DNA from: an uncultured Latescibacterota bacterium
Lineage (GTDB): Bacteria; Latescibacterota; UBA2968
Assembly: GCA_951812755.1 (NCBI GenBank)
Contig: OX638329.1
Coordinates: 3,480,522 to 3,544,521 of the forward strand
Reading direction: 5' to 3'
Length of the DNA stretch: 64,000 bases
A program made the translations under genes and the position numbers. A model generated the notes under the pieces. That model was not told the DNA's origin. It did not search any database and worked only from the letters and a program-made list of their open reading frames with translations. Of the stretch, positions 5,036-49,102 are shown piece after piece (the stretch's first letter is position 1; every line of letters begins with the position of its first letter).

Positions 5036-5185
5036 GGGGTTCTTCTCAAATACCGCAGAAAATGTGTACGCCCCCTTATTAACGCATATATTGATGGATC
5101 AACGTTTTTTGGGCAGGGTTCTCTTTGACTAAAAAAATAAATTGTTTAATTTATACCATCTTTCGATCACAAGGAGGTTTTTCCA

Positions 5186-5728
5186 GTGCAGGATTTTGAC
5201 CCTCATCTCGGTTCTATCTTAATCGACGAAAAAGCGATTCAGAACCGCGTTCGTGAACTCGGTGCCGAAATTTCCGCACAGTACCCAGACGGTGTCGTTC
5301 TCGTGGGTATTTTAACAGGATCCCTCTACTTTTTAGTCGATCTGTCGCGTGCGATAAGCTGTCCCATTGAAATTGATCTTATCGCAATTTCGAGTTATGT
5401 CGGTACAAGTAGCTCAGGCACAGTGACATACAAAAAAGACCTCAGCCGTGAAATTGACGACCGTCATGTGCTCGTTGTCGAAGATATTGTCGATACCGGG
5501 CGCACAATCTCTGCACTTCTCACATTATTAAAGGACAGAAACCCGCGCAGTCTCGGTATCTGCACCCTCCTGGACAAACCGGACCGCAGAATCGTACCTG
5601 TCCCCATCCATCACTGTGGTTTTACCATTCCGGATCAGTTTGTAGTGGGCTATGGCCTCGACTATAATCAAGCTTACCGCAACCTCCCCTATATCGCTGT
5701 GCTGGAGCCAATCGATCCAACCCTGTAG
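5186..5728 (+). CDS. hpt: hypoxanthine phosphoribosyltransferase
   Basis: This enzyme salvages hypoxanthine (and usually guanine) with PRPP to give IMP/GMP. The 180-residue length is typical. The PRPP-binding loop VVEDIVDTGRT is present, as is the C-terminal DQFVVGYGLDYNQAYRNLPYIA segment that contacts the purine. The start is GTG, supported by AAGGAGG eight bases upstream. A weak promoter-like pair, TTGACT (5125-5130) and TAATTT 17 bp later, precedes it. It is divergent from mutL and appears monocistronic. Confidence 0.95.
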   Translation: MQDFDPHLGSILIDEKAIQNRVRELGAEISAQYPDGVVLVGILTGSLYFLVDLSRAISCPIEIDLIAISSYVGTSSSGTVTYKKDLSREIDDRHVLVVEDIVDTGRTISALLTLLKDRNPRSLGICTLLDKPDRRIVPVPIHHCGFTIPDQFVVGYGLDYNQAYRNLPYIAVLEPIDPTL

Positions 5729-5748
5729 AAAAAAGCCTACTCCGCCTC

Positions 5749-6432
5749 TCAAGTGGATTCCGAGAGCAATGCGCACACGCGCTGGAACAAAACATCGATC
5801 ATATCTTCTGTCAGAACGCCCGTATTCATATTGTAGCGACTAAAATGGTAAGTCGCCACGAGGATCTTATCGTCAAACCGGTACACGCCACCGTGCTGGA
5901 AACGATAGGCGTTCAACCTCGTCACACGCCCTGCTGACCTCTCCAGCCTTATATAACTATCAAACGCATCCCTGCCCATTGCCAGGACGATTTTCACCCG
6001 ACGCAAGAAGGTCATTTCCTGCGCCAGCCAGTCGAGACACGCGCGCTTTTCTTCGGCTCTTGGGCGATTTTGAGGCGGAACACACTTGACGGCATTGGTG
6101 ATATACACATTGTCCAGGCGCATGCCGTCATGGATATCAACCGCGGTTTCCCTATTGGCAAAACCGTGCCGGAAGAGCGCGCGGTACAGCACATCGCCAG
6201 CACCATCGCCTGTAAATGGCCTACCCGTGCGATTGGCTCCGTGTGCGCCGGGCGCCAGACCAATAATGAGCAATTGTGCGTTGACATCTCCAAACCCCGG
6301 AACGGGTTTTGCCCAGTAATCGCAATCGCCAATTTTGCGGTTTTCCGCCAACTCAAAGGAGCGACAGTAATCGACCAGACGTTTGCACAGAGTACATCCC
6401 GCAATCTCTTTTTTGAGAACGCGTGTCTGCAT
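5749..6432 (-). CDS. uracil-DNA glycosylase, family 5-like (UdgB type)
   Basis: It removes uracil and related deaminated bases from DNA. The motif-1 region GLAPGAHGANRTGRPFTGD and the C-terminal ATYHFSRYN (usually HPSxxN, here HFSRYN) mark the thermostable iron-sulfur UDG group. Family 5 has Ala rather than Glu/Asp in motif 1, as here. Four cysteines (CTLC near the N-terminus and two further on, NAVKC and KRAC) fit the 4Fe-4S site. The ATG at 6432 is preferred because a longer frame would run through the upstream terminator and glutaredoxin gene. It lies just downstream of that gene. Confidence 0.88.
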   Translation of the reverse strand: MQTRVLKKEIAGCTLCKRLVDYCRSFELAENRKIGDCDYWAKPVPGFGDVNAQLLIIGLAPGAHGANRTGRPFTGDGAGDVLYRALFRHGFANRETAVDIHDGMRLDNVYITNAVKCVPPQNRPRAEEKRACLDWLAQEMTFLRRVKIVLAMGRDAFDSYIRLERSAGRVTRLNAYRFQHGGVYRFDDKILVATYHFSRYNMNTGVLTEDMIDVLFQRVCALLSEST

Positions 6433-6455
6433 AGTATTCACACTCTCGCACAATA

Positions 6456-6482
6456 GAAAAAGGCGACCCTTAAGGATCGCCT
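6456..6482 (-). terminator. Rho-independent terminator after the glutaredoxin gene
   Basis: On the minus strand AGGCGATCC-TTAA-GGGTCGCC is followed by TTTTTC. It separates the glutaredoxin gene from the UDG gene. Confidence 0.8.
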
Positions 6483-6508
6483 CATTATAAAAAACCACCA
6501 CCTTGTTT

Positions 6509-6874
6509 TTATCGTCCAAAGTGAGGGTTGGCAATGGTCGGTTGCTGTGCTGCACGCGCCATTGCTTCATGCTCTTCATCTGTACAGGAACGATCCGTCG
6601 GAACCGCGGGATCTGGACCACCGGGCTGGTAGCCGTTTTGGATCAACCAACCTTCTAACTCATCACCGCTGACATCGGCCAGCATCGTATCCCCGACCTG
6701 CACGCAGGGCTGTAAGGGCTGCCCACTCTTCATAACCATCTCGCGATAGTTGTCGGGATTGTTAATAATATCGCGGTCTTCGTACTCCAATCCATATTTT
6801 GCCAGAACAGCGCGCACACCACCGCTCCAACCACAGACTGGCTTTAAATATGCGATGACTTTGGGATTAGCCAT
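6509..6874 (-). CDS. glutaredoxin-domain protein, monothiol CGWS type
   Basis: A 121-residue protein with a thioredoxin-like glutaredoxin fold. The N-terminal strand VIAYLKPVCGWS carries the active site at C14 with Ser in place of the second Cys. Q-P-C-V-Q-V replaces the usual cis-Pro TVPQIFI segment, and ADVSGDELEGWL matches the family's C-terminal helix. About 35 residues follow that domain, ending in ANPHFGR. A good AGGAGG site precedes the ATG. Such proteins act in thiol redox or Fe-S transfer in the cytoplasm; which of these applies is not clear. The gene ends in its own terminator. Confidence 0.8.
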   Translation of the reverse strand: MANPKVIAYLKPVCGWSGGVRAVLAKYGLEYEDRDIINNPDNYREMVMKSGQPLQPCVQVGDTMLADVSGDELEGWLIQNGYQPGGPDPAVPTDRSCTDEEHEAMARAAQQPTIANPHFGR

Positions 6875-7006
6875 TGAAAAACCTCCTGAAAAATGACACT
6901 ACGGGTCTGATATAATTCTCTTTAATGTACAAAAAATTGCATATATGGCAAGGGTTCTTATTTTTTTTGCTTTTAACGGTCCGCCTGCCCTTCACCACGC
7001 CACCAA

Positions 7007-7965
7007 TCAAAATCCCACACTGGGAACTCGACCTTTATCCAATTTGCGGCTCTTTCCCCATCTAATAGTCCGAGTCATTTTATTTATGATGCCGATATTA
7101 TACCACAACTCTGTTCCTACAGGCGATTGGTGCATCTCCACGACAATATTCTTTTTGATTGCTACAGTGGGTACTTTCCCACTGCTGTAATTCACGCTTG
7201 ATCCCCACACAATCGTCCGCGTTTTTTTTTTAGTGTCCCCACGCGATACCACAATCGCAAGTCATCATGCCCTTGATGAACTTCCACTATCGTATCGCCG
7301 TCGAGATCGCACATGGGCAATCGCCCATTGTCATATTTGTGGCTTTCTCCCCAATCTATCGACCCCGAGGTCGAATCTAAAACGCCAACATGATACCACA
7401 AATTCGCCCCACTATGGGATTGATGCACCTCGACGATAGTATTCAATTCCTCTTTGGAAACTCCAATATTTGGAAATTGGCCCCGATCAAATTTTCTGCT
7501 TGCACCCCAGTTGATAACCCGGGTTGAACGATCCAAAATACCAGCGTGATACCACAAATCGGTTCCATCGTGAGACTGGTGCATCTCGACAATAATATTG
7601 CCCTGAATGCCGACAACCGGGTTTCTACCTCTATCTTCGTAACAGACACTGCTTTCCCAGTTAATCATCCGCGTTTTTTTATTAACCGTTCCCACGCGAT
7701 ACCACAAGGTCAAATCGCCGTGACCCTCGTGAACTTCCACAATCGTATTGCCTTCGAGGTCGCACATGGGCAATCGCCCATTGCCGTATTTGTGACCTTC
7801 TCCCCAATCAATCGCTTGCGTGGTCGGATTAATAATGCCAACACGGTACCACAAATCCGTCCCACTATGGGCTTGATGCACCTCGACGACGAGATCACTT
7901 GTGGATTCACTGGCTTCAATTAGAGATGTGATAGCGAAAATAATAAGAACAGCAGAAAATTTCAA
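7007..7965 (-). pseudogene. secreted VEVHQS/WG repeat protein, frameshifted at a poly-A run
   Basis: A signal peptide (KFSAVLIIFAITSLIEA) is followed by six repeats of about 47 residues with the pattern (I/V)VE(V/M)HQ-x-H-x-G-x-x-LWY-x-x-G...WG-x-S-x-K(Y/F)D-x-G-x-x-P. This is a beta-rich, probably propeller or lectin-like array. The start is taken as TTG at 7965, seven bases after AAGGAGG, because the GTG at 7974 overlaps that site. Within repeat 5 a run of ten A's (7222-7231) shifts the frame: one frame ends at 7192, while repeat 6 continues in the next frame to TGA at 7007. This may be a true mutation, slippage, or a read error. It is the last gene of an operon with the two genes upstream. 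Confidence 0.7.
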
Positions 7966-39969: not shown

Positions 39970-40088
39970 AGTCCCAATTTCGTCCTGTCTGTGTCTCTCT
40001 AAAAGTTTTGGTGGCTAATTTTGGAGTAAATTCTTAAATTGCCCAAACCCATTCTCTGCGTAATACACACTTGGAGAGTCCTTATCGC

Positions 40089-41351
40089 ATGCCTAATTAT
40101 CGAGAATACATGGCACAGATTCTAAATCATCCCATTCTAAAAAAAAGTCCTATTGCTCAGGTGGCGCTCTATCTTGCTACCCTATTTATTGGCCTCTATA
40201 TCTGTACAAAAGCGGCAATCTGGCTCGACGGAGCCATTACTGGACTACAAGGCGGGCAAGTCCTTCAGGGGGGAACTTTTTGGAAGGCACTTACCGTCAC
40301 ATTCCAACAACCCGACAATCCAAAACAAAAAATAGCAGTTACGGACATCCGCTTCAAGAATGTAGATCGCTTTTTACCCATCGCCGTGATCGTACACACA
40401 CAGGGGCGTGATTCGACCTATCACGCTGGCACGCAACGCGAATGGATCGAAATACCCAATATGCCCATCGACAGCCTCGTCATTCGCACGCGCAACGCCA
40501 GCCACAGCGCCGTGATCGACGATTTGAGCTTTCAGCACAACAACCGGAGCTATGCGATGGACTTTGACCGGACAGCCGATGGTCCCATTGCGCCCAATAC
40601 GCAGATGGTCGAATACAAATTTGAGGACATTCAAATCGCGTTTGCAGCCGACAATGCCGTGCCTACAGTTGTTCGCGGCGGTGATTTGGCCGAATCCATC
40701 GGACGCTATATCTCCAACATCAGCGGCCCACTTTCTACGGTTTTGATCCTGCTCCTGATCGCTTTGCCCTTCTATATGGTTGTGCGCTATGCTCAAGTTT
40801 TGTCTCACGATCTGTCACCTGACCGCTTCTTCACCAATTCCGACGCTCAAATCGTTCAGAAGCAAGGTATTGACCTGCTATGGGGCGGGCAATACAACAC
40901 CGATTACGCCCTATCTGAAAACACAGAGCTATACGCCATCCTCACATCTGTCGAATCTGAAATCGCATCTGACCAGGCGCGATTGGTCGAACGATGTACC
41001 GACAAAATCTATCTTCTTTTCGATGAAATTGAAGACCGTCTTTCCGAGGGATTTGGCATGTTGGGGCTTCTATCGCTCTCCATGGGACTTTTGGGCACAG
41101 TGATTGGCATGATAGACGCCTTCAAAATTTTGGAAGACACTATGAAAGTGGGCGAAGGTCCCGCCCAAACCCAGCTCAAAATGGCGCACTATATCAACTT
41201 TGCCCTCGTCACCACAGCCATTGGATTCCTCGGACGCATTTTATCCATGATCCTCATACGCAAAATCAAAGCCCACAGTCTGCAACATCGGGCGCGCATG
41301 CTCAACCTGATTCAGCACTTTTATCAAGTAGAGGGGAGACGTGAGGCGTGA
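40089..41351 (+). CDS. ExbB/TolQ/MotA-like proton-channel subunit with large periplasmic insertion
   Basis: 420 residues from the ATG at 40089 (GGAGAG upstream; an in-frame TTG at 40071 is less likely). TM1 is at about residues 23-45, followed by a periplasmic beta-rich domain of some 150 residues not seen in ordinary ExbB. A second helix (PLSTVLILLLIALPFYMVV) follows, then a cytoplasmic stretch, then the MotA/TolQ/ExbB signature helices GMLGLLSLSMGLLGTVIGMIDAFKILED and FALVTTAIGFLGRILSMILI. It overlaps the ExbD-like gene by 4 bp. It should conduct protons to power an envelope process. Confidence 0.85.
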   Translation: MPNYREYMAQILNHPILKKSPIAQVALYLATLFIGLYICTKAAIWLDGAITGLQGGQVLQGGTFWKALTVTFQQPDNPKQKIAVTDIRFKNVDRFLPIAVIVHTQGRDSTYHAGTQREWIEIPNMPIDSLVIRTRNASHSAVIDDLSFQHNNRSYAMDFDRTADGPIAPNTQMVEYKFEDIQIAFAADNAVPTVVRGGDLAESIGRYISNISGPLSTVLILLLIALPFYMVVRYAQVLSHDLSPDRFFTNSDAQIVQKQGIDLLWGGQYNTDYALSENTELYAILTSVESEIASDQARLVERCTDKIYLLFDEIEDRLSEGFGMLGLLSLSMGLLGTVIGMIDAFKILEDTMKVGEGPAQTQLKMAHYINFALVTTAIGFLGRILSMILIRKIKAHSLQHRARMLNLIQHFYQVEGRREA

Positions 41352-41878
41352 GACATCGCAACAGGCGACCTCTGGCAGCACTTTTAGACACGGGCGAAGG
41401 GTTTATTGATGTCTTGTTTTTGCTGCTTACATTTTTTATTATCCAGAATGTGTGGCAAACCCATCTCGCCAATTTGCACAACCGCTTCGTTCACGCACAA
41501 AAACTCAACTTTATCAAAGCACCCGACGAAGATGGCTCTGCACCCCACCCCACAGATGAACGATTTTTGCAGATTATCATCGGTAAATCCTATGTGCAAT
41601 TTGACAAAGGCGGCGTTGCCACCGAAGAGCACATGGTCTTTCAAGACCGCGCAGATAACGACCAGATTGGTATTGAACGCGCTGTATTTTTATCCGTAAA
41701 AAAAGCTTTACTCGCACTTCAGGCACAACATGGATTTGCGCCCAATGACATTTTGGTGCGCCTATATTTTGAACGCGATGCAACCGTGACTTATACCGTT
41801 GGTGTGTACGACGCCCTCAATACCAGCGGATTTAAGACCGTGCAATGGGGGCTGGAAAGCCAAAAAAGAAAATTGTAA
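41348..41878 (+). CDS. ExbD/TolR-like subunit
   Basis: 176 residues: a short basic N-terminus, one helix carrying the essential acid (FID21VLFLLLTFFII) and a periplasmic domain. This matches ExbD/TolR. The GTG start overlaps the ExbB-like stop (GTGA). The periplasmic part ends with a TYTVGVYDALNTSGFKTVQWGL segment that fits the ExbD swap domain. It pairs with the upstream subunit as the proton-driven stator. Confidence 0.85.
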   Translation: MRHRNRRPLAALLDTGEGFIDVLFLLLTFFIIQNVWQTHLANLHNRFVHAQKLNFIKAPDEDGSAPHPTDERFLQIIIGKSYVQFDKGGVATEEHMVFQDRADNDQIGIERAVFLSVKKALLALQAQHGFAPNDILVRLYFERDATVTYTVGVYDALNTSGFKTVQWGLESQKRKL

Positions 41879-41886
41879 AATAGAAT

Positions 41887-43236
41887 ATGTATCCCCAACA
41901 AAAAAATTTGATCCAGAGCACTCTTGAAAGCATGCGTCGGGATCATCCCAAACTCTTTGCCGTGTTATCAGCCACACTGCGCGCTCGCAACTTGTCTGAG
42001 GCGCGCCGAGCCTGCAATTATCCGTCGCCCGAAGACTTTACGAGCGACTACCATAAGGCTCTCGAACACCTTTCCAAACAGTTGCGAGACCAGGGATATG
42101 TTCCCCCATCGGAAACCGATAGTTTTGAGGATCACATGGGACAGATTTCGCCATCAAGCCATTCCAAACTGCCTTCGCGCGAAATCATCAACCGCTGCTA
42201 CAAAGGCCATATCTTCCACGAAGCATGTACGCTTGTGGCCAAACAGAACCACCAGGGGCTTTCCAAACTCTGGGAGCGCTTTCCCAATCGCCGGCATGAA
42301 ATAGAAATCGCGATCGCTCTTGCGCCTGTCCAGCCGCTCCAACCGCAACCCATCCGTCTGTCCTATGCCCCTATTCAACGCACACAGCAACGCTTTTTGC
42401 CCGCATTAGCTGGCGTGTTTGCACTGGGCATCGTCTTGCTATTGGCAGCGAGTCCCCCTCAGGGCGGGCGGGCATTCAAAGCCATAGTCACAAATTTTGA
42501 AGAAATGCTCGTAAGCGCGCAAGGCGTCTTTGATCTTAGCAAAAATGTGCAAGCCGACGCAACAAAACCAGAACCAGAACCCATAGTGCAGGCTGCACCA
42601 GAGCCTGCACCACGTCCCAAAATCGCGCTGCCAGACAAACCGAAATTGGCACTTGCATCTTTACCCGATATTCCGCGCCAACTCGACAGGCCGCTCGGCG
42701 CATCGCTCGGCGGATTGAAAACACCGCCCCGCATCTCGGCACCCAATTTGGACAGAGGTACAAACCCATCATCGTTTTTTGGTTCGCGACCAGAAGTCCA
42801 TGTCGCGCGCCCCACTATGAGCATGCCAGCGCACACCTCTACTACATTGCCATCAACAGGTAAAGATCAGCCCGAGCAACAAGCGGAATCCGACGAACTC
42901 AAAGGCTATCGACCTGCTGGACACATTAGTTTTTCCAACTTTCACACATCGACTGGTCTCTCGACAGAACTCGTGCGTTTGACCCGTATCCAACGCGCAC
43001 TCTCTCGGCTAAAAACGCCTCAAAGTAAAATATATGAAAATGCCCAACTCACATTAGCCCCGGACAAAGCCAAAATACAGTTTGCCGATGGCGTTGCATT
43101 TATCCTCACATTTCGACTGGGACAACTCGACGGCATTCGGATTTTCGCACGATCGGCCATAGACAAATCCCTTCACATAGAAACCGAAGCGCGTCGGGGC
43201 ATTCGTTTACTCAACCGCGCCCTGAGCAATTCGTGA
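41887..43236 (+). CDS. TonB-like protein with long cytoplasmic N-terminus
   Basis: 449 residues. About 165 residues of mostly helical cytoplasmic sequence come first, then one TM helix (FLPALAGVFALGIVLLLAA), then a Pro-rich linker (PEPEPIVQAAPEPAPRPKIALPDKP), and a C-terminal globular domain. The helix-plus-Pro-linker plan is that of TonB/TolA. The long cytoplasmic domain is unlike either. The C-terminal domain is not a recognised TonB fold. Eight bases separate it from the ExbD-like gene. It is likely the force-transmitting arm. Confidence 0.6.
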   Translation: MYPQQKNLIQSTLESMRRDHPKLFAVLSATLRARNLSEARRACNYPSPEDFTSDYHKALEHLSKQLRDQGYVPPSETDSFEDHMGQISPSSHSKLPSREIINRCYKGHIFHEACTLVAKQNHQGLSKLWERFPNRRHEIEIAIALAPVQPLQPQPIRLSYAPIQRTQQRFLPALAGVFALGIVLLLAASPPQGGRAFKAIVTNFEEMLVSAQGVFDLSKNVQADATKPEPEPIVQAAPEPAPRPKIALPDKPKLALASLPDIPRQLDRPLGASLGGLKTPPRISAPNLDRGTNPSSFFGSRPEVHVARPTMSMPAHTSTTLPSTGKDQPEQQAESDELKGYRPAGHISFSNFHTSTGLSTELVRLTRIQRALSRLKTPQSKIYENAQLTLAPDKAKIQFADGVAFILTFRLGQLDGIRIFARSAIDKSLHIETEARRGIRLLNRALSNS

Positions 43237-44621
43237 GATCGCTTATGAAAAAAATAGCCCTTATTCTCGCTTTTTTATTTTTACCACCCCTTTCCTTTGC
43301 CCAGGAAAAGGACGATGCCCTCGCCTATCAGGCTTTCGAGCAAGGCCGCAGTGCTTACGCGCTCGGGCGATACCTCGAAGCCGTCGCACATTTCGAGCGC
43401 GCGTGTAACCACGCCCTTATTTTTACCAGTGCCTATTATATCTGGTTGGGCACGGCATGCGAGCGCGCCTACGACACAGGTCGGGACACACCTGACCGAT
43501 TGGATATGCTCAGAAAAGGTGCCGACGCATACCGCAAGGCACTTGACCGGGAGCAAGACCCCGATGTTCGCTACGAACAAGGCCGCCTCACCGTCAAATA
43601 CGCGATGGCGCGTGCCAACTTCGTGCTCGAACGCGAAAACAACCGCCAACCCCTGCCGCTGGATTTGCCCCCGCCAGCATTGCGAGACAGCACCTGGATA
43701 CCCACGCGCTTTCAACCCGCAACAATTGACTCCCTGCACCGGATATGGCATCTCGCAGAGGGGGGGCTGCGAGACATTTGGATGGCGATTCTTGGCAGAA
43801 CGCAAAAGGAAATCGTCTATGCCGCGCCGCAACACAGCAGCATGAGCGATACCCTCCAGGCTTATTTAAGCGTCTATATCGAAAACAGTCTGAATCTGAT
43901 CGAGACCGCCGGGCAGGCGAATTTTGAAGGCATAGAACCCGATTTTTACATCCCAAAAATTGCCGCTGCATCTTCCCGCGGCGTTTTGGGCGACAACCCC
44001 GACTGGTTCAATCAAGTGCTCGCTGCCGCGCGCTTTGACGGCGGTTATAACATGCGCTGTGCCATCTATCGCCTCAAGGGATTGCGCCACAGCAAGGAAG
44101 AAGAAGCCAACCGCGCAATCCACGCCATGCAACGCGCTCTGGTCTATGCGAGATCCGACACCTCTCGCGCCGCCCTCTATCTCGACATGGCCTTCACCGC
44201 TTACCGAGACGACTTGCCCAAAGCCGTTGAATATGCCAAATACGCATACGCGCACAACCAATACGAACCGAGAGTGTGCGATACCTATGGTGGGCTTTCG
44301 CTCAGTTTGGCGAGCGTAAAACTCAAAGAAGGCGCGTACCGGGAGGCGATCTCAACTATTTATCCTGTAACCTCCTTTGGCTGGCAAGACCGCGGCGAAG
44401 CTCTGATCACTCTGGCGATTGCCTATTTCAACTCCGATCTGCAAAATGTGGGAGACAGAGCATACCAGGCCGCGGAAATGGCCTATCGCATTGCGCCAGA
44501 ACGCTACTGGGAAGAATTTCATCGCATTGCTAAAAGTCAGGGCAACTATGTGCAAGCTCGTCAACTCGAAGAAAAGCACAGCAGCGCGCTACTCAGCAAA
44601 AAACAGGACACCTCCCCATGA
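43233..44621 (+). CDS. secreted TPR-type protein
   Basis: 462 residues. A signal peptide (KKIALILAFLFLPPLSFA) follows the GTG at 43233 or, more likely, the ATG at 43245. The rest is built of helical pairs: AYQAFEQGRSAYALGRYLEAVAHFERAC near the start and EEANRAIHAMQRALVYARSDTSRAALYLDMAFTAYRDDLPKAVEYAKYAYAHN near the middle are TPR-like. Its start overlaps the TonB-like stop, and its stop overlaps the PEGA gene (ATGA). It is probably a periplasmic scaffold or partner of the TonB-like arm. Confidence 0.75.
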   Translation: MRSLMKKIALILAFLFLPPLSFAQEKDDALAYQAFEQGRSAYALGRYLEAVAHFERACNHALIFTSAYYIWLGTACERAYDTGRDTPDRLDMLRKGADAYRKALDREQDPDVRYEQGRLTVKYAMARANFVLERENNRQPLPLDLPPPALRDSTWIPTRFQPATIDSLHRIWHLAEGGLRDIWMAILGRTQKEIVYAAPQHSSMSDTLQAYLSVYIENSLNLIETAGQANFEGIEPDFYIPKIAAASSRGVLGDNPDWFNQVLAAARFDGGYNMRCAIYRLKGLRHSKEEEANRAIHAMQRALVYARSDTSRAALYLDMAFTAYRDDLPKAVEYAKYAYAHNQYEPRVCDTYGGLSLSLASVKLKEGAYREAISTIYPVTSFGWQDRGEALITLAIAYFNSDLQNVGDRAYQAAEMAYRIAPERYWEEFHRIAKSQGNYVQARQLEEKHSSALLSKKQDTSP

Positions 44622-46318
44622 ACACCCTGAGATTCATTTTATTTTGCATCCTGATGACCACACCGCTCCATATCCAGGCTCAAGAAACAGAGCCTGTGTC
44701 GAGGACGCTTCTCAAGACAAAAATTCACATCCGCTCAGAGCCCACAGGTGCTCAGGTCTTCATCAATGGGCAGGAAGCGGGTTATACGCCATTTGTCACA
44801 GAAAAGTTGCTGGACATTGGCGATAAAATTCAAGCGTATGCACACGGCTACCAGCCCTACACGCGCACATTTACGACAATCGTTTTGGCAGATACGGTGC
44901 ATATTGCGCTCATACGCCAGAAAGCGAATCTGGAGATTCGGTCAGATCAACTCGCAGCCTTAGGTGCAGAAATCCATCTTCGATTTGCAGATCAAGACAC
45001 GACCATCACCGGGTTTATCAACATCGGACGCGGCAATGTGGCATATCAGTCGGACCTCTTTGTGGGCAAATACCACCTCGAAATCAGCAAACCCGGTTTT
45101 AATCTCATCGAACAAGAATTCTTTCTTCCACCGCGTGGCAAACTCATAGCAATTCGGCTTACACCCAATCCACTGCCGCTCACGGGATTGTCTATACCCG
45201 GTCTCGCGGATATCGCAGATCAATACCTCGCCGAAAGCGCGCAACTCCTCGCCGCTGCCCTGGCCATTGGCGAAACAGCACCCGCAGTTGAAACCAATGC
45301 GTCTATCCGCCTCAGCGATACGCGCTTGACGCCTTTTATCGAAGATCTGAAATACTATAGCCACCAGACGCGCGAATTAGAACGCACGATGCGTCTTATG
45401 GGAAAAAGCGAACGCAGCCTGCTCCGTGCACTGTCGCAAATTGACGTGTATCGCGGCATTGTACTCGGCAAATACCGCCGCTTCTCAGAAGCGAACGCAC
45501 TCTTTGAAGAAGCCCGTGAGCGTTCTCCCTTTCCCATCGAACAAGAACCTAATCCCCTGCCAGGGGAAAGCGAGTCCCGTCTGGGCGATCTCACGCGCTT
45601 TGCCGAACAATGGCACACCCGCCTCGGTCGATTAGATGTCAACATAAATGCGGCCTATCTCGCCATTCGCAACCTGCCCCCCAAAACCCTGCGCTTTGAA
45701 CAGGTGCGCTTCACGCGAGAAGAACCCGTGCCCCCGGCCACTTCCTCACACGAACAGGCCATGCACGACAGCCTCGTCGCCCTTGCCGAACACATCCTGA
45801 ACGACAATATCGCCAATCGCCAGCAGGAGTTTTCCCTCACCCTTCCCCAAGGCCATTACATGCTCAAAGACACGCAAAACATGGCCATCCCCATTTCATT
45901 CCGCGTTTCAGAAACCCCCGCTTTTCTACCCATCTCACCGCGTGTCAGCTTGTGGTTGCCCACCGCCAAAACCGCGTCGGATACGGTTCGCCTGCAAACC
46001 GTCGTCGGAGACGAACTCGGCCCGATTGTTCAACCCGATCAAATTACTTTTGGTCGAGAATACGCACTTCTGGTCAAAATGGGCGATTACAAACGCCACC
46101 GCGAAAACATCATCCTCTATCCTGCAAGCGGCATCAAACCCGTCTGGCCCGGGGTTACTGCCATCGCCGCGACCCCAGGTACGGAATGCCTATATTACAA
46201 AACAGGGAATGAAAAATTGGAAACATCTCTCCTCGGCAACATACAGGGCAAACGTAGCGGGATTCTCAAATACCTGCTCATACCCATCGTCGGTATAGGC
46301 GTTGCCCTCGCGCTGTGA
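44618..46318 (+). CDS. PEGA-domain protein with C-terminal membrane helix
   Basis: 566 residues. A signal peptide (FILFCILMTTPLHIQA) precedes a PEGA domain (IHIRSEPTGAQVFINGQEAGYTPFVTEKL), then a second similar beta domain at about 110-180, a long helical region and a C-terminal helix (LLIPIVGIGVALAL). PEGA domains often bind cell-wall or polysaccharide. It is the last gene of the five-gene cluster; the C-terminal helix would place it in a membrane. Confidence 0.78.
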   Translation: MNTLRFILFCILMTTPLHIQAQETEPVSRTLLKTKIHIRSEPTGAQVFINGQEAGYTPFVTEKLLDIGDKIQAYAHGYQPYTRTFTTIVLADTVHIALIRQKANLEIRSDQLAALGAEIHLRFADQDTTITGFINIGRGNVAYQSDLFVGKYHLEISKPGFNLIEQEFFLPPRGKLIAIRLTPNPLPLTGLSIPGLADIADQYLAESAQLLAAALAIGETAPAVETNASIRLSDTRLTPFIEDLKYYSHQTRELERTMRLMGKSERSLLRALSQIDVYRGIVLGKYRRFSEANALFEEARERSPFPIEQEPNPLPGESESRLGDLTRFAEQWHTRLGRLDVNINAAYLAIRNLPPKTLRFEQVRFTREEPVPPATSSHEQAMHDSLVALAEHILNDNIANRQQEFSLTLPQGHYMLKDTQNMAIPISFRVSETPAFLPISPRVSLWLPTAKTASDTVRLQTVVGDELGPIVQPDQITFGREYALLVKMGDYKRHRENIILYPASGIKPVWPGVTAIAATPGTECLYYKTGNEKLETSLLGNIQGKRSGILKYLLIPIVGIGVALAL

Positions 46319-46660: not shown

Positions 46661-46927
46661 ATGGAACGGTGCTACATTATCTCTTATGACATGGCCGAGG
46701 GAGGCGATTACAGTGCCCTCCACGAGGCCATCCAGAACTATGGCGTTGGGGCTCCGGTTACCGAATCAACATGGGCGGTGGTAACCGGGTATAGCGCGGA
46801 AGTGATTCGTGACCGCTTGAGCAGATACCTGCCTGATGGCAGCCGTCTTTTTGTCATCAGGTCGGGGGTTGAATCGGCTTGGTGGAATGCACTTTGTGAC
46901 AACAAATGGCTAAAAAGGAACCTTTAG
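46661..46927 (+). CDS. Cas2/SinR-like protein, copy 1
   Basis: 88 residues: YIISYDMAEGGDYSALHEAIQNYG...ESTWAVVT...SAEVIRDRLSRYLPDGSRLFVIRSG...WLKRNL. This is the ferredoxin-like fold of the stand-alone Cas2-like group often labelled SinR family. There are no CRISPR repeats or Cas1 nearby. It is nearly the same as copy 2 at 47387. The function of such stand-alone proteins is not settled; a link to toxins of the VapD type has been proposed by fold. Confidence 0.75.
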   Translation: MERCYIISYDMAEGGDYSALHEAIQNYGVGAPVTESTWAVVTGYSAEVIRDRLSRYLPDGSRLFVIRSGVESAWWNALCDNKWLKRNL

Positions 46928-47386: not shown

Positions 47387-47707
47387 ATGGAAGCCTACAT
47401 CATCTCTTACGATATGGCCTGGGGAGGCGATTACGACGCCCTCCACGAGGCGATCAAAAGTTACGGGGCCTGGGCACATATTACCGAGTCAACATGGGCA
47501 GTGTTGACCGAATATAGCGCGGAAGTGATCCGCGATCACTTGAGCGAATACCTGCCTGATGGAAGCCGCCTTTTTGTCGTCCGGTCCGGCGATGAAGCGG
47601 CGTGGCAATACTTGAACTGCGCCTCCGACGAATGGTTGGAAGCCATACTGTCCCAAGATGCAATCCGTCTCAACAAGTTACACGCAATTTTGCAACTTGA
47701 TTCGTAA
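47387..47707 (+). CDS. Cas2/SinR-like protein, copy 2
   Basis: 106 residues with the same core as copy 1 and a longer C-terminal helix (LEAILSQDAIRLNKLHAILQLDS). The YIISYDM start and ESTWAVLTEYSAEVIRDHLSEYLPDGSRLFVVRSG core match. AAGGAGAAA precedes the ATG. The second leader repeat overlaps its end. Confidence 0.75.
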   Translation: MEAYIISYDMAWGGDYDALHEAIKSYGAWAHITESTWAVLTEYSAEVIRDHLSEYLPDGSRLFVVRSGDEAAWQYLNCASDEWLEAILSQDAIRLNKLHAILQLDS

Positions 47708-47875: not shown

Positions 47876-49102
47876 ATGGACCATGCACTCATAGAACAAG
47901 TGGAACAACTGCTGCAATCAACAGGATCAATTATTAAGAAACATGAAGAAATTGCCCGGATCAAGGGCGAAAACTTCAATATATTCTGCGTGTTGGGGAT
48001 TGAAGACAAAGAAGTTAAACTGCATTCGCGTTTTATAGCCGAGTTACTTGATCCCAAAGGGAGTCACGACCAGAAGACAGCGTTTTTGAAGATGTTTTTG
48101 GAACAGGTTGTGGAGCCCCTGACATCAGAATCAGACAGGCTTCCCAAAGAAAGCAAGACAAAGGTACATAATGAATACTACATTGGTCCAAAGCGTATAG
48201 ACGGAGAGAATTCAACAGGTGGTCGTATAGACATCTTCATAACCGATGGGATACAACACATTTCCATTGAGAACAAAATTTGGGCAGACGAAGGTGAGCA
48301 TCAGGTCGCCCGATATTGCAACTATCAGACTGATAAAAACCTCGTAATATTTTTGACACTTCGAGGTGATGAAGCCTCTACGGAGAAGAAATACTACCCT
48401 GTCTCTTATAAAGAGCATATACTCCCGTGGCTGGAATCCTGCCAGAAGCATTGTGCAGACCTGCCTATTCTAAGAGAGACGATAAAGCAGTATATCATTA
48501 CCATCAAAGGATTAACAGGAGGTTTGACAATGCAAAAAATGGAGAAGACCATCCAAAAGCTTATGATGAAAAATATAGAGGCAGCACACGCGATATATTC
48601 AAATTATGACCCCCTCTTCCAAAAAACCGTTGAGAAATTTGTTCAAGAGGTAAAAGAAGAAATCGAGGATGAAAAACCTGTTTCCTGCAGTTCTAACGAC
48701 TGGAAAATAACTCCTAACGATGGAAATGGATTAAGAATAAGAAATACACAATGGAATGAAAATCATCATCTTCAGATAGATTGGGCGTGGGCAAAAAAAC
48801 GTGCGAAATCAGCACCATTTTACGGCATTATTGTCCATGAAGACCACTTTAATCGGGATAAAATCAAAGAGAAACTGGATGGAATAGAGGGATTAGGACT
48901 AGACTTATACGACCCCAAATATCCAGAGTGGCCTTTCTATACATATACAAAAGAAGCTGATTTCCAGGACCCCAATCAGTTAAAAACACTATGGGAGAAA
49001 GAAGAACGCAAGGAACTGGTAAAAGATGTTGCCCGTAAGCTCATTGAACTCATTGAATTTTGCAACGGCAAACTTCTACCATCCGGGAATAGTAATAGTT
49101 GA
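47876..49102 (+). CDS. PD-(D/E)XK nuclease superfamily protein
   Basis: 408 residues. The pattern LHSRFIAELLDPKGSHDQKTAFLKMFLE followed by GGRIDIFITDG...ISIENKIWADEGEHQVARYCNY gives the PDDEXK_4 catalytic set (D of RIDIFI and E-x-K of IENK). These proteins occur in defence-rich accessory regions. The C-terminal 180 residues form a separate, more variable domain. Its neighbours are the Cas2/SinR-like genes. Confidence 0.82.
   Translation: MDHALIEQVEQLLQSTGSIIKKHEEIARIKGENFNIFCVLGIEDKEVKLHSRFIAELLDPKGSHDQKTAFLKMFLEQVVEPLTSESDRLPKESKTKVHNEYYIGPKRIDGENSTGGRIDIFITDGIQHISIENKIWADEGEHQVARYCNYQTDKNLVIFLTLRGDEASTEKKYYPVSYKEHILPWLESCQKHCADLPILRETIKQYIITIKGLTGGLTMQKMEKTIQKLMMKNIEAAHAIYSNYDPLFQKTVEKFVQEVKEEIEDEKPVSCSSNDWKITPNDGNGLRIRNTQWNENHHLQIDWAWAKKRAKSAPFYGIIVHEDHFNRDKIKEKLDGIEGLGLDLYDPKYPEWPFYTYTKEADFQDPNQLKTLWEKEERKELVKDVARKLIELIEFCNGKLLPSGNSNS

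Follow-up and report, generated by a model that had tools for sequence, protein, structure and literature searches.

The window, a 64,000-nucleotide stretch of DNA, lies within the 6.53 Mb single-contig genome of an uncultured Latescibacterota bacterium. On its + strand, from 40089 to 46318, it carries an operon of five tightly packed genes, A to E:

40089..41351, + strand: gene A, 420 aa; an extra transmembrane (TM) helix and a predicted periplasmic beta-sandwich, followed by a complete, divergent ExbB/TolQ channel subunit by profile comparison
41348..41878, + strand: gene B, an ExbD/TolR-like subunit of 176 aa
41887..43236, + strand: gene C, candidate transducer; predicted cytoplasmic helical region (residues 1-165), TM helix (170-188), proline-rich linker (191-335), and globular C-terminal region (336-449)
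43233..44621, + strand: gene D, a predicted secreted alpha-helical/TPR-like periplasmic protein with a signal peptide
44618..46318, + strand: gene E, a PEGA-domain protein with a putative C-terminal membrane tail

The joints measure -4 bp (A-B), +8 bp (B-C), -4 bp (C-D), and -4 bp (D-E). A tightly joined five-gene cluster had been proposed from the letters of the DNA (the sequence-only reading); its frames and joints were recovered, and the gene order, which that reading proposed to check, holds beyond this genome: each of the genus's 11 genomes (this one and 10 others) has the five genes so arranged. Named relatives with the locus are Latescibacterota MAGs. In the most distant member (G038, locus L011) protein identity is 84% for A, 87% for B, 63% for C, 77% for D, and 70% for E; the A-B and B-C gaps are 43 and 64 bp, and the C-D-E overlaps are retained. 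Values of dN/dS against G038 are 0.10 (A), 0.07 (B), 0.30 (C), 0.15 (D), and 0.28 (E), and those against a nearer genome (L010) are lower for 5/5 genes. The motor parts are under the strongest purifying selection; residues 196-395 of A are 91-98% invariant and the TM segment of B is 100% invariant. Because the five-gene order is kept across the genus and dN/dS is low, the order is selected rather than a chance of annotation.

Proteins B, C, D, and E were searched by profile over 64 genomes of the phylum, and A by single sequence over the same 64 genomes and by profile in 8. These searches found no other credible gene set, so of all genomes searched only those of this genus have the full five-gene set; four of the five genes have no match in the other 53 Latescibacterota genomes searched. 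The sole exception outside the genus comes from G018, a genome of another family, in which a short contig carries, close to its start, a sequence homologous to the final third of E (E=2e-24). A pattern-based contig scan with A across all phyla returned this genus and, apart from it, only short ExbB-core matches in Alphaproteobacteria; no plasmid homologs of A or E were found.

Downstream of E are two small, paralogous-looking ORFs of 88 and 106 aa (46661-46927 and 47387-47707), the first of which has no Pfam match, and a PDDEXK_4 nuclease-family gene (47876-49102). In locus L008 the small ORFs and the PDDEXK_4 gene are absent and the next conserved gene follows E after only ~200 bp; in L011 an ORF related to the first small one is found upstream of A. 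These genes look like a variable insertion outside the operon.

Protein A could start at a TTG at 40071, but the ATG at 40089 is favored by its orthologs. Its features are as follows:

40152..40208, + strand: extra N-terminal TM helix (hydropathy maximum; helix H21-52 in the model)
40278..40661, + strand: predicted periplasmic beta-sandwich of ~10 strands (AlphaFold2 (AF2) model residues 64-191, block pLDDT 42-83)
41097..41099, + strand: pore threonine T337 (GLLGTVIG), aligned to TolQ 8odt and ExbB
41199..41201, + strand: F371, at the position of the conserved ExbB/TolQ glutamate in alignments to TolQ 8odt and ExbB
41214..41216, + strand: pore threonine T376 (ALVTTAIG), aligned to TolQ 8odt and ExbB

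A matches PF01618 with 43.4 bits (cut-off 22.9, E=3.6e-11). Residues 200-415 align by hhalign over 184 columns (probability 99.9, E=5e-32, 17% identity) with an ExbB profile that was made from other phylum loci and excludes A orthologs; a score of 134 bits from an earlier ExbB profile was discarded as circular, since A orthologs were in its training set. The alignment includes TM1 and with it the whole TM1-cytoplasm-TM2-TM3 core, so A is a whole ExbB preceded by an extra TM helix and a periplasmic domain; by these profile alignments its ExbB/TolQ homology is complete, though the sequence is very divergent. The best match among solved structures is TolQ, a weak one (E=0.47). An ExbB/TolQ-like channel with a large extra periplasmic domain, as proposed by the sequence-only reading, is confirmed; the additional TM helix before that domain had gone unmentioned. 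The TM3 glutamate of ExbB/TolQ (GIxEAL) is absent from A, and F371 is found in 8/8 aligned orthologs.

A and C were modeled as single chains with low mean confidence (pLDDT 48); the A model has a mean pLDDT of 48 and is poor outside the periplasmic domain. The beta-sandwich has no Pfam match. Foldseek pairs it with the CBM32 structure 2v72 (probability 0.98, TM-score of 0.35 normalized by target) and with 1nc7 (probability 0.87, 0.43 on the same scale), in both cases with E-values that are not significant. The model tentatively suggests a jelly-roll of galactose-binding/CBM32-like type, which serves as a lead.

Large extracytoplasmic domains ahead of a complete ExbB occur elsewhere, and the long ExbB of Serratia is a precedent (PMC9008036). 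In the phylum genomes, locus L133 (G019:C84, 2346-7129) encodes a DUF2341-LamG-ExbB fusion together with a TonB and a Porin_5 protein, and L134 encodes a 438-aa ExbB with a large N-terminal extracytoplasmic domain in a cluster with a recognizable TonB. A shares with these proteins the placing of an extra domain, a beta domain in each case, before a complete ExbB; the domains themselves differ, and those clusters carry a recognizable TonB. The L133 contig may be a gammaproteobacterial contaminant of the G019 MAG.

Besides A, the genome has three PF01618 genes. L046 is a canonical Ton cluster (TPR-ExbB-ExbD-ExbD-TonB-TPR), and L045 is an ExbB-ExbD-TonB set adjoining a glycosyltransferase. L047 (G000:C1:4592000-4604000, 5167-7555) contains a divergent ExbB-like gene (28 bits), whose neighbors encode a TM protein lacking the TM aspartate and a periplasmic protein of 403 aa, which has two hydrophobic segments and, by eye, some likeness to a sugar-binding beta domain. 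This periplasmic protein and the ExbB-like protein were considered as a split paralog of A and rejected: there is no sequence similarity, and the protein at the ExbD position lacks the TM aspartate.

Protein B is ExbD-like chiefly in its TM segment (residues 18-40), which contains:

41408..41410, + strand: D21, the putative proton-carrying TM aspartate, invariant

D21 lies in FIDVLFLLLTFF. B scores 20.8 bits against PF02472 (cut-off 25.4, E=4.4e-4), and the hhalign match to ExbD (probability 86, E=5e-6) is confined to the TM segment; by these comparisons the periplasmic domain appears only marginally ExbD-like and is hardly recognizable as such. No OmpA match, corresponding to the peptidoglycan-binding domain of MotB, was found in B. 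An ExbD-like subunit with an acidic D21 is thus borne out by the TM motif and by the invariance of the residue.

Protein C has one TM helix by hydropathy (170-188). In its AF2 model the helical cytoplasmic region is the best-modeled part (pLDDT ~75-88 over residues 1-70), the proline-rich linker is disordered, and the C-terminal domain has low confidence. C has no match in Pfam, NCBIfam (E<=1), or PDB sequences, and Foldseek gave no meaningful match. Searches of Pfam and NCBIfam at E<=1 did not find a TonB/TolA C-terminal domain; the canonical TonBs of the same genome, as a positive control, do score with PF03544. As a TonB homolog C was rejected with a 20-row TonB profile of the phylum (hhalign 0.2%), and as a Glt-type transducer because it is absent among the NF033768 matches in its own genome at E<=1. 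TonB and TolA carry a TM histidine in an SHLS-type motif (PMC12204202); the TM helix of C has no histidine in any of 8 orthologs. Pfam recognizes neither a vWA domain at the tip nor a signaling domain. Of the TonB-like protein with a long cytoplasmic N-terminus that had been proposed, the topology therefore stands and the homology does not, the profile, tail, and histidine tests being negative. C is TonB/TolA-like in topology only, and transducer-like only by layout.

Protein D has a hydrophobic segment at its N-terminus only, which is signal-peptide-like. Its earlier label as a TPR protein comes down to one sub-threshold TPR_2 match (E=0.021, 15.4 bits versus a cut-off of 27); what is retained is a predicted periplasmic protein with that signal-peptide-like N-terminus. 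Protein E, likewise with a signal-peptide-like N-terminus, matches PF08308 (PEGA) at residues 35-86 (E=4.5e-8), in agreement with the sequence-only reading; two further PEGA-like stretches seen by eye have no Pfam match. E ends in a hydrophobic tail:

46259..46315, + strand: hydrophobic C-terminal tail of E, GILKYLLIPIVGIGVALAL (hydropathy 2.16 over 19 residues)

The tail is conserved: it is present in G038, and the E-homologous fragment of G018 ends KYALVPVIFLLGIQ. E is therefore probably membrane-anchored through this tail, judging from its conserved hydrophobicity. Neither D nor E shows a lipobox (by eye for D), and none of the five genes is predicted to encode an outer-membrane or peptidoglycan-binding protein. 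The proposed reach from the inner membrane to a wall- or surface-bound PEGA protein is accordingly not supported. Elsewhere in the phylum no other PEGA-ExbB neighborhood appears among the matches listed, compared by eye, except one weak case, in which a partial PEGA match lies ~4 kb from an ExbB (G003:C2, among the matches listed).

Taken together, the operon is best read as encoding an inner-membrane motor driven by the proton motive force (PMF), one of the 5:2 motors of ExbBD/TolQR type to which this genus has added attachments of its own; we give this a probability of about 0.6. By homology, A would form a pentameric wheel around a dimeric axle of B, and its threonines would make two rings past which D21 carries the protons. 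The five beta-sandwiches of A would then form a periplasmic collar around B. C could act as force transducer, its single TM helix being joined to a globular tip by a proline-rich linker (~145 residues), and its large cytoplasmic domain might allow regulation or positioning by the cytoplasm. D and the tail-anchored E would form a periplasmic structure acted on by C or the collar, and the load beyond the inner membrane would be encoded outside the operon. The most plausible guess for its role is envelope organization or surface-protein export.

Several observations favor the motor: the five genes are together in 11/11 genomes with overlapping stops and starts, purifying selection acts most strongly on the motor parts, A has full ExbB homology with both pore threonines, B has the ExbD motif with D21, and C has the three-part topology typical of force transducers. 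The proton-driven apparatus of the sequence-only reading gains support from the complete ExbB homolog and the aspartate-bearing ExbD TM motif, which point to a PMF-type energizer. On the other side, A lacks the ExbB glutamate, the periplasmic part of B is hardly ExbD-like, pLDDT is low, and no outer-membrane partner is encoded; C, with neither the TM histidine nor a TonB-type tip, is only putatively coupled to A.

The searches of Pfam, NCBIfam, and PADLOC agree with the earlier claim that the gene set differs from those of Ton, Tol-Pal, Mot, Gld, and Zorya: the five genes include no GldL or GldM match (NCBIfam, E<=1) and no TolB or Pal, TolB_N is found in 0/11 genomes of the genus, and Zorya membership was rejected because PADLOC returned no Zorya model. 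The canonical Ton cluster of the same genome (L046) is similar in gene content and order, and the operon could be an additional, divergent ExbBD-TonB serving one outer-membrane receptor encoded elsewhere, with the TPR and PEGA proteins as accessories. The two have in common a complete ExbB, the ExbD TM aspartate motif, the transducer topology, and a TPR gene. The operon nevertheless has one ExbD where L046 has two, an A with an extra TM helix, a periplasmic domain, and F371 for the glutamate, a cytoplasmic domain in C, and a PEGA protein; the cluster contains no receptor, and C shows neither TM histidine nor TonB C-terminal domain although Pfam finds the TonBs of this genome, and the phylum TonB profile misses it. 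These differences make a Ton system improbable. A substitute for Tol-Pal in envelope constriction and integrity, with A, B, C, and D standing for TolQ, TolR, TolA, and CpoB, would be in keeping with the lack of TolB across the genus and with the tolQ-tolR-tolA-plus-TPR order. Its prospects are slighter still: TolB, Pal, and the TolA C-terminal domain are missing from the operon, C does not end in a TolA/TonB-like tip, and in the family's four other genera TolB and the operon are both absent, so the operon does not track the loss of Tol-Pal and was rejected as its replacement. TolB_N goes undetected in most Latescibacterota genomes; in G018, TolB lies beside Pal- and CpoB-like genes (L163, G018:C14, 5970-8973).

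In GltG and GltJ, the transducers of the myxobacterial Agl-Glt machinery, a cytoplasmic domain is followed by a TM helix and a periplasmic tip. This layout, which C resembles, together with a TolQR-like motor as in AglRQS, would fit a machine for motility or secretion, like Agl-Glt or the T9SS motor, with D and E linking to an export or adhesion apparatus. A further hint in that direction comes from G018, where the E-like C-terminal fragment is followed by an Ig-repeat protein broken across a number of frames and then by a protein that weakly matches the PorV/PorQ barrel family (L132, G018:C230, 392-6073); this suggests that the E family may accompany surface-protein export in another family. 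Set against it, NF033768 misses C and weakly matches a TonB of the same genome, the operon lacks a second TolR-like gene, Glt genes for the outer membrane, and any GldL/GldM match, and the G018 Ig-repeat protein was rejected as a partner in the genus, where a search lacking a positive control found no homolog. Such a machine is about as unlikely as a Ton system. Alternatively, the sandwich of A and the PEGA protein might sense the envelope or its glycans in a PMF-gated sensor with the cytoplasmic domain of C as output. The well-modeled N-terminal helical domain of C and the carbohydrate-binding-like Foldseek matches of A are compatible with this, but no signaling domain is recognized in C, and the conserved proton-channel motifs and long periplasmic linker better suit force transduction, leaving a sensor as improbable as a Tol-Pal substitute.

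Precedents for such a motor exist outside Ton and Tol. TolQR-like motors encoded with TPR genes have been described in which the transducers have the TonB/TolA layout and end in a vWA domain, and further such systems are expected to be found (PMC12204202). The operon fits this kind in its motor and TPR genes and in a transducer whose TM helix is followed by a disordered linker and a globular tip unlike that of TonB; it differs in that C lacks both a vWA match and the TM histidine, and in the added periplasmic domain of A and PEGA protein. With its unrecognized tip, A domain, and PEGA protein the operon belongs to a known motor family as a variant, and the suggestion of a possibly new machine is weakened by the precedents in L133, L134, PMC9008036, and PMC12204202; a literature search found no paper combining a PEGA domain with ExbB, ExbD, and TPR. 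A tentative proposal, less likely than the motor itself, is that the operon encodes a trans-envelope machine of a new PMF-driven class. Here a 5:2 motor bearing a carbohydrate-binding-like collar would drive C, whose tip would have a new fold, against an inner-membrane-anchored PEGA/helical-repeat scaffold.

The operon is a well-defined, genus-wide addition to the few proton motors outside Ton, Tol, Mot, and Gld. Its candidate transducer has no recognizable TonB/TolA tip, and its channel subunit carries a periplasmic sandwich of its own and lacks the ExbB glutamate; each unusual part offers a direct test of what a motor core needs and of how motors gain new loads. In another family, L052 and L162 (G049 and G047) contain a divergently arranged ExbB-ExbD-ExbD set with a 1093-aa TPR protein and a DUF4159 protein that has a TM helix and a proline-rich N-terminus, which gives the class a further motor operon outside Ton and Tol.
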